Below are positions 3,855 to 17,047 of a DNA stretch of 20,798 nt, one piece after another; the first letter of the stretch is position 1, and every line of letters starts with the position of its first letter. Made by a program: the position numbers and the translations under genes. A model generated the notes under the pieces. It was not told where the DNA came from. It saw only the letters and a program-made list of their open reading frames with translations, and made no database searches. The DNA is from a virus. Location: positions 1-20,798 of the IMG/VR virus record IMGVR_UViG_3300034106_004307. The stretch is one strand, 5' to 3'.

Positions 3855-4590
3855 TTATCCAATCCACAAATTTTGATACTCTTGTATGACCAGATTCTTC
3901 ACCATATGTAGATCTGGGACTTTTTTTACCAACACACATTAAACAAGAATTAATACCGGCTAATTTATTGTCTATAAATAGTCCACCACCACTATCTCCG
4001 CTTGCTATTAAAAATTCTAAACTCGTATATCTATCACTACTTCTGGTTGATGGTGTGCATACTAATAAGTCTCTATCTATAAAATCTATAAAGTTAGATC
4101 CTGCTCTTTTTTTATGATCAGATAATACTGCACCAGTATGAAAAGTTCCAGTTAAGCCATATCCAGATATGCAACTAATTTTTCCAACCTCGTCCGATAA
4201 AGTATAAAGTTTTGGATAAAAATCTAAACCTATTTTTTCTTCTACATAACCTAAAGCAATATCAGCAATACCAAATGTTTCTTCACTATAATCTTTATGA
4301 ACTATCACTTTCTTAGCCAGGATTTTTTTATCTTTAACTGTGATATAACATACTTTGCAGTCTTTAACAACATGAGCCGCAGTTAAAAAATGATTATCGT
4401 CAATAGCCACAGCAGATCCACAAAACATCATATCTTGCTGATTATTTCCGCACACGCTTACAACATAATTAAAATCTTTACCATATTCTATATATCTGTT
4501 ATCTGGAGTAGAAGGATCGATAGTTCCTGCAAAAACACCACTAGCACAGAAGCATAGAATATAACCTACTAAGATTTTTAATAGTTTCAT
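3829..4590 (-). CDS. Secreted trypsin-like serine protease (S1 family)
   Basis: The 253-residue protein has a Sec signal peptide (MKLLKILVGYILCFCASGVFAG, cut probably after FAG near residue 22). The chymotrypsin-fold triad follows: His73 in LTAAHVV, Asp110 in IADIALGY and Ser200 in GDSGGGLF. Eight or more cysteines in the mature part suggest disulphide bonds, so it would act in the periplasm or outside the cell. The start at 4590 is chosen over an upstream ATG (4626) because GGAGG lies 8 bases before it and the signal peptide then begins at residue 1. A stem-loop places this ribosome site in its loop. Its target is unknown; candidates are envelope proteins or competitors' receptors, which is speculation. 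Confidence 0.92.
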   Translation of the reverse strand: MKLLKILVGYILCFCASGVFAGTIDPSTPDNRYIEYGKDFNYVVSVCGNNQQDMMFCGSAVAIDDNHFLTAAHVVKDCKVCYITVKDKKILAKKVIVHKDYSEETFGIADIALGYVEEKIGLDFYPKLYTLSDEVGKISCISGYGLTGTFHTGAVLSDHKKRAGSNFIDFIDRDLLVCTPSTRSSDRYTSLEFLIASGDSGGGLFIDNKLAGINSCLMCVGKKSPRSTYGEESGHTRVSKFVDWINEHKTKVD

Positions 4591-4627: not shown

Positions 4628-4655
4628 ATTATCTGTTTTTTCTATCTCTTGTCAT
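4628..4655 (-). promoter_or_regulatory. Possible weak promoter for the protease gene
   Basis: ATGACA (4655-4650) and GATAAT (4633-4628) are 16 bp apart on the minus strand, each one base off consensus. They overlap the last codons of the HNH gene and lie about 40 bp before the protease start. Confidence 0.4.
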
Positions 4656-4979
4656 TATTAGATAATTAACGGCTTTTATAACACTATCTAAATTATCTCC
4701 TAGTTTTCCAAGACCAGTATTGCAAGGTTCGCAGATCCAACCCCTAAAACTATCATCAGAATGATCATGATCTAAACACCATTTGAAGGGAACTTTTCCA
4801 CAAAGTTCACAAAATTCTGGTTTTGGTGGGGCTATTTTATGTAGTCCGCTTCGTATCTTAGAATGTTTTTTAACACACTTTCTACATCTACTATCTAGAT
4901 TATCTTTGTACATACTGTGTTTAGGAAAACTTTTAAGGTTTTTTCTTTCACCACAATAAGTACAAATTTTTCTAGGCAT
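4629..4979 (-). CDS. HNH endonuclease of the recombination endonuclease VII type
   Basis: The 116-residue protein begins MPRKICTYCGERKNL. It has a zinc-binding CxxC pair near the start (CTYC), another pair (CRKC), then CELCG, the catalytic CLDHDHSDDSFRGWICEPCN block, and a GLGKLGDN tail. D-H-D-H, then F-R-G and C-x-x-C-N, is the signature of Pfam endonuclease VII proteins, many of which are free-standing homing endonucleases in phages. The start is the ATG at 4979; the longer frame would run into the tmRNA. Only two bases separate this ATG from the tmRNA discriminator base, and there is no Shine-Dalgarno sequence. Translation may therefore depend on the tmRNA precursor transcript. Mobility is inferred from the family. 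Confidence 0.9.
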   Translation of the reverse strand: MPRKICTYCGERKNLKSFPKHSMYKDNLDSRCRKCVKKHSKIRSGLHKIAPPKPEFCELCGKVPFKWCLDHDHSDDSFRGWICEPCNTGLGKLGDNLDSVIKAVNYLIMTRDRKNR

Positions 4980-4981
4980 AT

Positions 4982-5336
4982 TGGAGGCGATGGGAGTCGA
5001 ACCCATTTCTTGCGATATTTCTAATTACATCTTCTACAAGTTTATTTTATTCATGAGTTAAATTGAATTACAGAATAAACAAGACTAATCCAACCTTACC
5101 AACTTCTCTTAACCTACAACCCGTTGGATACTGTAAGTGCAGAGGGATTTGACGACAGACTTTTGATCGCTACCCTCATTCGCAATCGCAGTCTGTTACT
5201 GCCCTTTTTTGTCAGGCAGCAAGTGCTAACTGATTTGTGCCAGTTAAAGCATTTGGTAGATTTTTATAGTGGCCTTTCTACCAACCACTACTTGCTAACA
5301 TAATCTTCTATATCCAATCGATACCGTTACGCCCCC
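4982..5336 (-). ncRNA. ssrA: tmRNA (transfer-messenger RNA), one-piece form
   Basis: The 355-nt gene starts GGGGGCGUAACGGUAUCGAUUGG and ends with a T-arm (GGGUUCGACUCCC) and CGCCUCC plus discriminator A; CCA is not encoded. The acceptor strands pair over 7 bp with a G3-U70 pair, the alanyl-tRNA synthetase identity element. A pseudoknot follows (AGUGG with CCACU, UGGUAGA with UCUACCA). Twelve bases later, after UAACU, comes the predicted resume codon GGC (5241-5239). The tag frame reads GTNQLALAA and stops with UGA (5214-5212), giving a full tag AGTNQLALAA. A CUGCC/GGCAG stem around the stop and at least two further pseudoknot-like domains (GAGGG/CCCUC, AUCCAAC/GUUGGAU) complete the fold. It would rescue stalled ribosomes and mark products for ClpXP-type proteolysis. 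Confidence 0.95.
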
Positions 5337-8579: not shown

Positions 8580-9029
8580 TTAGTTCCTTATATTAGTCTT
8601 ATGAAAATTTAATACTTCTTGACATAATACAATAAACTCATCATACAATAAATTACCTTTTGCTTGATTAGCGTCTTTACAAGCAATATTACAATTGTCT
8701 AATGAGTTTTGACCGCCCCTATTTTTAGGAATAATATGATCTAAATGATAAGATTTTCCATCCAGTAAATCAATAGGACGACCAGTCAAATAACAAATAG
8801 GATTTTCTCCTATCTTAGATAGTAACTCTTGTGCTTTAAATGTCATAGAAGGATATTTCCATAATTTCTTATCTCTGTGAAATCTAATAATTTTATTCTT
8901 TAATATGGTATTTATATCAGTTTCTTTAGATGGTTTGCTAATATATGGCTGTTTCTTTTTATAGTTATCTCTATTACCTCTAAAATTTTCTAGTTTTTTA
9001 GATACTATATCTTTTATGCTTTTACTCAT
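8580..9029 (-). CDS. HNH homing endonuclease
   Basis: The 149-residue protein has a basic N-terminal half and a C-terminal HNH domain: PICYLTGRPIDLLDG, then SYHLDHIIPKNRGGQNS (catalytic D-H and H), then LDNCNIACKDANQAKGNL with the N and K of the ββα-metal fold. A single cysteine in the CYLTG turn suggests that a full zinc knuckle is absent. It is probably a free-standing homing endonuclease, inserted between uvsE (4 bp ATGA overlap) and the membrane miniprotein. The ribosome site is weak. Mobility is inferred from family and context. Confidence 0.92.
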   Translation of the reverse strand: MSKSIKDIVSKKLENFRGNRDNYKKKQPYISKPSKETDINTILKNKIIRFHRDKKLWKYPSMTFKAQELLSKIGENPICYLTGRPIDLLDGKSYHLDHIIPKNRGGQNSLDNCNIACKDANQAKGNLLYDEFIVLCQEVLNFHKTNIRN

Positions 9030-13890: not shown

Positions 13891-14212
13891 TTCCTACCAT
13901 CCATTCTACTTCATTAAATTCAAAAGTTTTATTTAGATGTTCAGAAAAAATGACAGGATGATAACCCCACAGATAAAATACCTCTCCCTTTGTCCACCCT
14001 ATCTCGTCGTGCTTACAAAACCATACCTTATCAAATTGATTAAGAGAATATTGTTGAACTAGCGGTTTAGAGTTTTTTAACTGACTTATATTTTGCTTGT
14101 GGGTAGGATTTAATACTACAATCACAAATGGAATAAATAATAACGCTAAAAACATAAATACTAATACTATGCCATTTGGCCCATGATTCTTATATTTACG
14201 ATGAGGATTCAT
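13883..14212 (-). CDS. Small single-pass membrane protein, unknown function
   Basis: The 109-residue protein has a basic start (MNPHRKYKNHG), one strong membrane helix (IVLVFMFLALLFIPFVIVVL, 15-34) and a polar remainder with DKVWFCKHDEIGWTKGEVFY and a WMVGNE end. Tryptophan and cysteine residues in the tail suggest a small folded domain. It overlaps the end of the metallophosphoesterase gene by 17 bp and the zinc-ribbon gene by 8 bp, so the three are likely translated together. Confidence 0.7.
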   Translation of the reverse strand: MNPHRKYKNHGPNGIVLVFMFLALLFIPFVIVVLNPTHKQNISQLKNSKPLVQQYSLNQFDKVWFCKHDEIGWTKGEVFYLWGYHPVIFSEHLNKTFEFNEVEWMVGNE

Positions 14213-14796
14213 TTTTATCCTTGTTATTAAATAGTTTTTGTATTTCCTTGAAACTCCAAGGTTCTCCGAATGGCTTATTATAGTTTATTGTATTATCCAC
14301 ACCAACATCTAGAGTTTTTCGTTTTGATGCTTTATCCTCATGATCTAGTTTACTGTGAAGATGACCATAAAGCATATAACTGCCCTTATGAGAAGCAGGC
14401 CAACTTCTGTGAGGATAGTGACTTAGATATATCCTTTGATTGCAATATATTATTTCTTTTACTTCTTGCATACTACTAAATCCATTCATATCCACAACAT
14501 TTTCACTAGGATAATAATCAGTTTTTTTGTCATGGTTGCCCATGATTAAGTGAATATCTTGGCACTTTATTCGTATGCGATAGTCTATCGGTTTCTTTCC
14601 TTTAAAAGAAAAATCTCCCAGTATGTATAGAGTATCATCAGTCCCAACAGTTTCATTTATTCTGTCGAGCATTACTTGATCCATTATGTGAACATTATCA
14701 AATGGACGATTACAATGTTTGATTATATTGTTATGACCTTAATTAGCCCGCAGGCTAACCAAAGTGAGTGTCTGATGTAAAGTATATCATACTCAC
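14196..14796 (-). CDS. Metallophosphoesterase interrupted by a 22-nt bypass-like element
   Basis: This is a calcineurin-like phosphoesterase in two reading frames. The first part starts at GTG 14796, 8 bases after AAGGAG (or at ATG 14790), and encodes MIYFTSDTHFG up to the GGT at 14760-14758. TAG follows at once. The second part begins after another GGT (14738-14736) with HNNIIKHCNRPFDNV and runs intact to a stop at 14196. Joined without the 22 nt, it gives a 192-residue protein with all family metal motifs: DTHFGH, ILGDF, MGNHDK, LSHYPH and YGHLH. The first two metal ligands (Asp and His of DTH) come only from the first part. The join restores DTHFGH exactly. I infer ribosomal bypass. Disruption of the gene, or an assembly error, is the alternative. 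Confidence 0.85.
14736..14760 (-). promoter_or_regulatory. Candidate translational bypass (ribosome-hopping) site
   Basis: Take-off codon GGU (14760-14758) is followed directly by UAG. A stem of 6 bp, UUAGCC with GGCUAA, carries a UGCG loop closed by C-G (an UNCG-class stable tetraloop). Then UUAA and the matching landing codon GGU (14738-14736) follow. The 19-nt gap between the codons contains stops in all three frames, including UAA directly before the landing codon in the resumed frame. Simple frameshifting therefore cannot reach the second part. The order glycine codon, UAG, hairpin, matching glycine codon is that of the phage T4 gene 60 bypass. Function is inferred. Confidence 0.75.
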
Positions 14797-14808
14797 TTTA
14801 TTTTCTCC

Positions 14809-14964
14809 TTAGTTGAAGTACATTCTATCCAGCTTCTTAAGAATATTTATATATACTTCCGGCCTATCATAGATTTCAACACCTTCTGGTCCGTTATCTA
14901 TTTCTTTTAGTTTTTCCTCTAATAGATCTACTAAAATATCCAAATCTTTATTAGTTAGTTTCAT
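14809..14964 (-). CDS. Small protein of unknown function, 51 residues
   Basis: This frame starts MKLTNKDLDILVDLLEEKLK and ends VYINILKKLDRMYFN. It is predicted to be two amphipathic helices around a polar turn (DNGPEGVEIYDRP). Its ATG overlaps the stop of the upstream gene (ATGA). The ribosome site of the metallophosphoesterase (AAGGAG) overlaps its own last codon. Those two couplings are the main support, since no family is recognised. Confidence 0.7.
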   Translation of the reverse strand: MKLTNKDLDILVDLLEEKLKEIDNGPEGVEIYDRPEVYINILKKLDRMYFN

Positions 14965-16378: not shown

Positions 16379-16407
16379 ATTATACCAGAAACCTGAGTGT
16401 TTGTCAA
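16379..16407 (-). promoter_or_regulatory. Strong sigma70-like promoter with extended -10
   Basis: TTGACA (16407-16402) and a perfect TATAAT (16384-16379) are 17 bp apart, with TGG before the -10. Transcription would start near 16372, at the start of the structured leader, and run through the longest gene run in the window. Most of the -35 and spacer (16385-16408) repeats the sequence at 6784-6807 with one mismatch. Just beyond it, TTGACA at 16416-16421 on the plus strand may serve the HNH gene, but no good -10 follows. Confidence 0.88.
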
Positions 16408-16453
16408 CTGCAACTTGACAGCATTTGGGTTTTCTGTTTTTAAGGGTCTGATG

Positions 16454-17047
16454 ATGGTTATCATTATCAAAGAATGTAGTAAGTGTAAAGAATATAAAGT
16501 TTTAGATTGTTTTTATAATGCAAAAAATAGATTGTTTAACAAAACACCGTACTGTAAAACTTGTAATTATTTAAGTGAAATTGAATACAAAAAGAAAAAT
16601 AAAGATAAAGTTTATCAAAGACGTAAAAAATATAGATCAAATAATAAAGATAAAATTAATAAAGATTGTATTACATATAGAAAAAATAATAAAAATCGAA
16701 TTAATCAAAATAAAAAAATAAGAAGAAAAACAGATGCACAATTTAAAGTTAAAGCAAATCTCAGAAATAGACTATATATGGCAGTAAAAAATGAATATAA
16801 ATCAGTATCTACTTTAGAATTGTTAGGATGTACAGTTCCGTATTTAATCAAACATTTAGAAAAACAATTTACCGAAGGTATGACTTGGGACAATTATGGA
16901 TTATATGGATGGCATATAGATCATATTTTACCGTGTGCTAGTTTTGATTTAACTGATCTAGAACAGCAGAAAAAATGTTTTCATTACTCTAATTTACAAC
17001 CTTTATGGGCGGCAGATAATATATCTAAAAAAGATAAAATTCTTTAA
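16454..17047 (+). CDS. HNH endonuclease, likely homing
   Basis: The 197-residue protein from the second of two ATGs (16454; AAGGG lies 7 bases upstream) starts MVIIIKECSKCKEYKVLDCF. It has an N-terminal zinc knuckle (CSKC, CKTC) and a lysine- and asparagine-rich linker of about 60 residues. An HNH-like end follows: WDNYGLYGWHIDHILPCASF, then CFHYSNLQPLWAADNISKKDKI. The I-D-H-I-x-P, F-H-Y-x-N-L-Q-P-L-W and N-x-x-K motifs match a family of phage and bacterial HNH proteins. It is on the plus strand within a minus-strand block and is very A-rich, as is the GIY-YIG gene, which fits a mobile insertion. Confidence 0.92.
   Translation: MVIIIKECSKCKEYKVLDCFYNAKNRLFNKTPYCKTCNYLSEIEYKKKNKDKVYQRRKKYRSNNKDKINKDCITYRKNNKNRINQNKKIRRKTDAQFKVKANLRNRLYMAVKNEYKSVSTLELLGCTVPYLIKHLEKQFTEGMTWDNYGLYGWHIDHILPCASFDLTDLEQQKKCFHYSNLQPLWAADNISKKDKIL

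Follow-up and report, generated by a model that had tools for sequence, protein, structure and literature searches.

How a phage could make an enzyme from a gene whose catalytic motif is cut by a stop codon is the question raised by a metallophosphoesterase gene in IMG/VR virus record IMGVR_UViG_3300034106_004307. The stretch analyzed here, referred to as the window, comprises positions 1 to 20,798 of that record, and the gene lies on its minus strand. An original prediction, made from the letters of the window, proposed that ribosomes bypass a short insert in this gene. Ribosomal bypassing also appears to be the best explanation that emerges from the comparisons below, which use sequence evidence and place landing sites by alignment. 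We consider it likely that the insert is a translational bypass element and the immune-allele part of a homing endonuclease gene (HEG) cassette, with the HEG itself absent from the window.

Anatomy of the interrupted gene

The first coding part, MIYFTSDTHFG (14758-14790), has 11 codons when read from the ATG at 14790-14788 or 13 from an in-frame GTG at 14796, six bases 5' of the ATG. A Shine-Dalgarno (SD)-like AAGGAG (14805-14810) precedes the start. The part ends in CAC TTT GGT, where the glycine codon GGT (14758-14760) is the candidate take-off site, and its frame is closed directly afterwards by TAG (14757-14755). A non-coding gap of 19 nucleotides, TAGCCTGCGGGCTAATTAA (14739-14757), leads to a second GGT (14736-14738), the candidate landing codon, which aligns to the single glycine of uninterrupted homologues. 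The reading frame then continues as CAT AAC AAT... and stays open down to a stop at 14196. This second coding part, GHNNIIKHCNRPF... (14196-14738), amounts to 180 amino acids from the landing codon and comprises the metallophosphoesterase body. Joining the two frames gives MIYFTSDTHFG/HNNIIKHC…, with TSDTHFGHNNIIK as the predicted junction peptide. The original prediction had described this arrangement of GGT-TAG, a second GGT and a DTHFGH motif rebuilt without change of residues, and it is borne out on the minus strand.

Stops in all three frames of the gap had also been proposed. Two frames are indeed closed: TAG and TAA stand in frame 0, and the landing frame has a TAA immediately 5' of the landing GGT. 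The third (GCC TGC GGG CTA ATT AAG) has no stop inside the gap and meets one soon afterwards. The corollary that a single +1 or -1 shift is unable to join the two parts still holds for the window.

Two RNA structures flank or span the take-off codon. The take-off hairpin, GGTTAGCC-TGCG-GGCTAATT (14741-14760), has the six Watson-Crick base pairs and UNCG-type loop that had been predicted, the loop being UGCG, plus two G.U pairs. Its folding energy is -10.3 to -12.7 kcal/mol (z -3.4 to -3.8), and it shares its stem core with T4 gene 60, where the loop is UUCG. A second stem-loop forms on the 5' side. Its 5' arm, TAAAGTGAGT (14791-14800), forms 10 base pairs with its 3' arm, ACTCACTTTG (14760-14769), which abuts the take-off codon; the stem scores z 4.7 against shuffled sequences and is present in the predicted fold. 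An SD-like UAAGG overlaps the landing codon, whereas the corresponding element of gene 60 lies six nucleotides 5' of its landing codon. The insert occurs as one copy in the window. An Rfam search of the window returned no known element at the bypass site. Its sole match is elsewhere, a phage transfer-messenger RNA at 4979-5336 on the minus strand (tag GTNQLALAA, RF00023, 106 bits), so that a ribosome-rescue RNA is encoded alongside the apparent hop.

Judged from its sequence, the product of the joined frames is a calcineurin-like metallophosphoesterase. Taken by itself, the second part gives a Pfam Metallophos_2 match with an E value of 1e-4, below the curated cutoff, and has phage phosphoesterase homologues across 95% of its length. 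An uninterrupted relative matches PDB 1xm7 both in sequence (E 2e-11) and in predicted fold (TM 0.70). The metallophosphoesterase motifs D-x-H, GD, GNHD, H and GHxH are invariant alignment columns. D-x-H is encoded 5' of the gap, and the remaining ligand motifs are all 3' of it.

Distribution and conservation of the insert

Among 15 close homologues, three (L002, L010 and L012; L numbers designate the collected loci) carry the same insert. In the others with an available 5' end, the motif is uninterrupted and the gene is exactly 22 nucleotides shorter, which is the homologue pattern expected of an insertion; L180 is the closest insert-free allele of the window that shares its leader. Pattern and profile scans added L018, L019, L020 and L182, such that seven other contigs have the insert at the same codon. 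The same hairpin recurs in a 23-nucleotide gap of a distant phosphoesterase (L220/L253, 35% identity). A scan of 2.9 million viral contigs found the 18-nucleotide core GGTTAGCCTNCGGGCTAA at just 11 sites. Eight of these belong to the same gene and motif, a ninth has the same architecture in an unrelated gene, and two (L251/L252) were set aside as intergenic. This clustering speaks against a chance occurrence.

The eight insert alleles are far from identical. Their downstream coding sequences differ at 16-35% of nucleotides, and the ratio of nonsynonymous to synonymous substitution rates (dN/dS) is 0.105 for the 11 codons 5' of the gap, 0.130 for the first 18 codons after it and 0.138 for the rest. 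Synonymous divergence per site in the same three segments is 0.28, 0.49 and 0.68. By comparison, only three of the 19 gap positions vary (0.058 per site), one in the loop and two 3' of the stem, and the stem is invariant. Recombination near the 5' end may have reduced divergence of the gap, which is still well under the synonymous level of the adjacent codons. The take-off and landing codons are GGT and GGT in all eight alleles, as expected if the same tRNA reads both. In addition, the histidine codon of the motif is CAC in all eight shared-insert alleles versus CAT in 12 of 12 close uninterrupted ones (p = 8e-6, uncorrected for phylogeny); CAC lets the stem pair with G rather than form G·U. 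Because both flanks are under selection and gap divergence is low across the eight alleles, the insert appears to be old and retained, and a pseudogene or an artefact is unlikely.

A homing endonuclease gene beside the phosphoesterase

In three loci (L188/L019, L182/L254 and L220/L253), a HEG ends just before the phosphoesterase start. The encoded proteins of 280-306 residues have a zinc-ribbon-like start, a NUMOD3 domain (found by Pfam in two of four members) and a C-terminus that is HNH-like as judged by eye. When these proteins were compared with the collected loci by tblastn, matches were found only beside interrupted phosphoesterases, namely in those three and in L197. In the set ascertained through the phosphoesterase, all four genes with a HEG are interrupted, versus five of 60 without one (Fisher p = 2e-4). 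A profile scan, in which loci were ascertained through the HEG instead, found 14 further distinct loci. A phosphoesterase adjoins in every one of them, and its D-x-H-F-G-H motif is broken in 11. Altogether, 18 distinct loci have a HEG of the NUMOD3/HNH type directly upstream, and the phosphoesterase is interrupted in 15. The three uninterrupted genes (L270, L274 and L276) have altered motif residues (W, Y/N and C/S). A quick tree requires at least 11 changes in interruption and at least seven in HEG presence; it left only two usable pairs for an independent-pairs test of the association.

The window itself has no tblastn match to this HEG family and therefore retains only the presumed immune allele. 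The family has no blastp match to T4 MobA, and its best match to S16 gp3 is marginal at most (E 0.006 over 51 amino acids). Genes of Serratia phage BF and Cronobacter phage GAP32 that partially match its HNH part were rejected as counterparts, being located among tRNA genes and not beside a phosphoesterase. The phage of the window looks rich in other endonucleases. Pfam identifies a GIY-YIG gene at 619-1506 on the plus strand and, on the minus strand, endonuclease VII-like (4629-5006) and HNH (8580-9029) genes; the product of 16397-17047 (plus strand) is HNH-like by eye and has no Pfam match.

A shared signature of diverse inserts

The interruptions of phosphoesterases in this collection are either one-base insertions or hop-type inserts, of which there are nine different classes, and insert classes in the HEG-bearing loci are mostly singletons. 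All take-off sites fall within four consecutive codons, those for x-H-F-G of D-x-H-F-G-H. Written as take-off codon, gap and landing codon, the inserts other than that of the window include ATC-TAGCGAGG-ATC (L257), CAT-TGAC-CAC (L265), CAT-TAGC-TAT (L268), CTT-TGA-CTA (L269), CAG-TGA-CAA (L271/L272), ACG-TA-GCT (L273), ACT-TA-ACT (L275) and CAT-TAGATGC-TAT (L197). The last of these loci has two extra stretches within 3940-4010, 8 nucleotides upstream that make a hairpin of 13-16 base pairs and 10 nucleotides at the hop, and the only in-frame start seen there is an ATG 24 codons 5' of the hop, within the HEG.

A stop codon (TAG, TGA or TAA) directly follows the take-off codon in all nine hop classes, for which the chance expectation is (3/64)^9, or about 1e-12. 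The landing codon matches the take-off codon in its first two bases in six of nine classes (p = 4e-6), and the mismatch in the other three is a possible first-position G·U pair. Target-site duplication is insufficient to account for this signature because it would give matching codons, not stops.

The hop loci also share a 5' stem that ends 0-4 nucleotides from the end of the take-off codon. It has 13-14 base pairs in L197, L257, L265 and L268 and 8-10 in the window, L191, L269, L271, L273, L275 and L053 (shuffle p 0.01-0.02 for both groups); in L220 it has 6-7 (p 0.07). Folding z scores of the hop regions are -4 to -8 in eight of nine tested and -2.9 in L053. By the same shuffle test, no 5' stem abuts the take-off site in four loci with candidate +1 frameshifts, and among 55 uninterrupted loci the stem is not seen as a set, with 5% reaching p 0.05. 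The hairpin is missing also from uninterrupted loci that have a HEG. In many loci, the start codon or ribosome binding site falls within the 5' arm or borders on it. In several the arm lies at the end of the HEG or just after it, so a motor may come with the cassette itself.

Other explanations for the interruption

The strongest competitor, itself unlikely, is that the phosphoesterase has been inactivated. In this case the insert would be a scar induced by the HEG, and the two halves would be remnants or two separate polypeptides. Cleavage by the HEG followed by faulty repair would yield insertions and deletions at one site. However, a dN/dS of about 0.1 on both sides of the gap, including the 18 codons between it and the first downstream in-frame ATG, is not what a scar predicts. 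Apart from L267, where the contig ends, every interrupted locus keeps a downstream frame of full length. Stops occur exactly after the take-off codon and landing codons match it, and a product restarted downstream would be without the D-x-H ligands, which are encoded upstream. The original prediction had named accumulated stops and frameshifts in relatives as the sign of a pseudogene; the alleles with the 22-nucleotide insert instead keep intact, selected coding sequence on both sides.

Only slightly less probable is an arrangement in which the hairpins control initiation or coupling, the stop of the short upstream frame belongs to a leader, and the body of the enzyme is made by downstream re-initiation. 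The overlap of many 5' arms with start codons or ribosome binding sites is consistent with this explanation, as is the UAAGG at the landing site of the shared-insert alleles. Yet the first in-frame ATG, GTG or TTG of the second part is codon 19, and coding sequence before this codon is conserved. Moreover, the 3' arm lies directly against the take-off codon, and loci with nothing to be hopped, namely uninterrupted ones with or without a HEG and the +1 loci, lack the hairpin.

Ribosomal frameshifting combined with readthrough has a still poorer prospect as the explanation for the window. Candidate +1 sites do occur among its relatives. In L260, L261-263, L264/266 and L267, one extra base after TTT (TTT_C GGN or TTT_T GGG) could be repaired by a +1 shift, and one such shift could join the parts of L182. 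These one-base loci are also ones in which the HEG frame ends near or within the phosphoesterase start. In the window, on the other hand, the landing frame has TAA right before GGT, frame 0 has both TAG and TAA, and reading the gap would put about seven residues into the metal motif. An assembly or sequencing artefact, for which the metagenomic origin of the contigs might speak, can be dismissed almost entirely, given that contigs of at least six further metagenomes share the insert and have independent substitutions of their own.

Several observations weigh against bypassing itself. T4 gene 60 depends on a KKYK nascent-peptide signal located about 30 residues before the P site (PMC5009743). 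According to the original prediction, the residues preceding the hop are too few for such a signal; the count of 11-13 is confirmed and leaves no room for KKYK. Outside the window and L191, the shared-insert alleles have a contiguous 5' stem of 6-7 base pairs that is not significant by itself (p 0.10-0.19), with a bulged extension predicted. L182 has lost the TAA before the landing site, making a single +1 shift formally possible. L220 pairs a GGT take-off with a GGA landing codon, and no stop closes its landing frame within the gap. Finally, all insert-bearing phosphoesterases come from metagenome contigs.

A model for bypassing and its spread

Bypassing in the window might proceed as follows. 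Having read MIYFTSDTHFG, a ribosome would halt on GGT while UAG occupies the A site, and the UNCG-capped hairpin can form there. Peptidyl-tRNA-Gly would then release its codon, and the 5' stem-loop, whose 3' arm consists of the codons just read, would re-zip behind the ribosome and drive it forward. This re-zipping may do what a nascent-peptide signal does in T4 gene 60, and short gaps would need little push. The tRNA would re-pair with the second GGT, CAT would be read next, and D-x-H-F-G-H would be completed with no residue gained or lost, as the alignment predicts. As for the origin of the insert, the NUMOD3/HNH-type HEG would cut the conserved D-x-H-F-G-H codons, and a small insert would abolish its site.

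A broader proposal seems to us somewhat better supported than its negation. This HEG family may have settled repeatedly beside phosphoesterases, with each target guarded by a different recoding interruption, either a hop over 2-23 nucleotides or a +1 shift. In the hops, the 5' hairpin would be the motor, its upstream arm often derived from the end or trailer of the HEG, and would work without a nascent-peptide signal. If true, programmed ribosome hopping is a recurrent and evolvable solution rather than a curiosity of T4, and it has an evolutionary rationale, since a target gains immunity to the HEG while its protein is retained. One motif would offer nine natural hop designs that differ in gap length, codon and stop, together with uninterrupted controls and +1 alternatives. 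These designs suggest a minimal recipe of a stop in the A site, a matched codon and a 5' hairpin abutting the take-off site. Neither these elements nor the pairing of HEG and phosphoesterase was reported in the open-access literature searched, within which the pattern linking HEG, phosphoesterase and interruption is new.

The same design in other genes

The original prediction regarded the insert as a small mobile element flanked by GGT copies and recommended a search for similar insertions elsewhere. The first idea is right only in part: what appears mobile in relatives is a cassette of HEG plus insert, and the same hairpin insert does recur in a different gene. In a marine contig (L053, 10186-11202, plus strand), a glycosyltransferase-9 gene reads TTTGGT-TAGCCTTCGGGCTAACTA-GGC after 15 codons, with in-frame TAG and TAA and a 5' stem of nine base pairs over the start codon. 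No HEG of the NUMOD3/HNH family was found on this contig, and a query with its glycosyltransferase found no phage relative.

The hairpin is also present with GGT codons in topoisomerase gene 60 of Salmonella phage S16 (L165) and Escherichia phage UoN_LG358_1 (L168). Shewanella phage Thanatos-1 (L164) has a gene 60 bypass site with GGT and a variant loop. In these three members of the Straboviridae, the gene 60 sites adjoin MobA-like genes and the halves are annotated as separate proteins.

Other matches were rejected as bypass sites. The pattern GGNTAGCCTTCGGGCTANC occurs in 77 places in viral contigs, most of them representing one intergenic motif of marine phages; this motif, ACTTTCTCAAT-GGGTAGCCTTCGGGCTACCCAC, lies before a gene start in dozens of contigs (for example, L025-L037). 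The pattern GGTTAGCCNNNNGGCTAAC gave 74 places that are mostly chance or intergenic matches. Two matches in a scan of genome contigs were judged to be intergenic or at a gene end, and those in Vibrio phage BUCT194 and Bacillus phage Moonbeam are chance occurrences inside open genes.

Comparison with known systems

To our knowledge, T4 gene 60 has so far been the one firmly established, efficient case of bypassing by bacterial ribosomes. Because it is a single case, its essential parts could not be told. The likeness of the window site to it is closer than originally claimed. The site in T4 gene 60 is GGA-TAGCCTTCGGGCTATC…GGA, and that in most of the window's relatives is GGT-TAGCCTTCGGGCTAAC-TAA-GGT. 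The 14-nucleotide core TAGCCTTCGGGCTA is identical in T4 and these relatives, the next pair out being A-U in T4 versus U-A, and the window differs in its TGCG loop. Both systems have a glycine take-off codon followed by UAG, the core UAGCC-UUCG-GGCUA (UGCG in the window) and a matching landing codon. Both also have a 5' stem-loop, an interruption in a conserved catalytic motif and, in relatives, an association with a HEG (PMC11194080, PMC5009743). Convergence on this hairpin core is possible because few stem bases remain free once the UAG start and the C(UUCG)G loop are given. The differences are nonetheless substantial. The gene is another one, and the gap has 19 nucleotides as opposed to 47 plus the landing codon in T4 (50 nucleotides from GGA to GGA). 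The 5' stem ends 0-4 nucleotides from the take-off site here and about 12 nucleotides upstream in T4. Since its 11-13 codons before the hop encode no KKYK nascent-peptide signal, the window site is not filed as a member of the gene 60 type and is said only to work like one.

Bonocora et al. in 2011 reportedly described T4 mobA and the bypass insert as a homing cassette. The phosphoesterase loci resemble it in that a HEG adjoins its target and an insert in the target removes the presumed cleavage site, and the T4 insert has likewise been proposed to protect against the HEG (PMC5009743). They differ in having a NUMOD3/HNH-type HEG, a phosphoesterase target and many inserts for one pairing of HEG and target, and the window differs further in being without the HEG.

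Two other systems invite comparison. The synthetic stop-hops (+5/+6) of Weiss et al. 1987, as cited in PMC5009743, resemble CTT-TGA-CTA, CAG-TGA-CAA and ACT-TA-ACT (L269, L271 and L275), where ribosomes would hop a stop between matched codons. Unlike the synthetic stop-hops, these sites are natural, interrupt one conserved motif and have a 5' hairpin. The byp elements of Magnusiomyces capitatus mitochondria are similarly short untranslated inserts in coding sequences that are bypassed (PMC5009743). However, byps occur many per genome and seem to be independent of mRNA context (PMC5009743), whereas the phosphoesterase insert is present in one copy and is embedded in strong structure.
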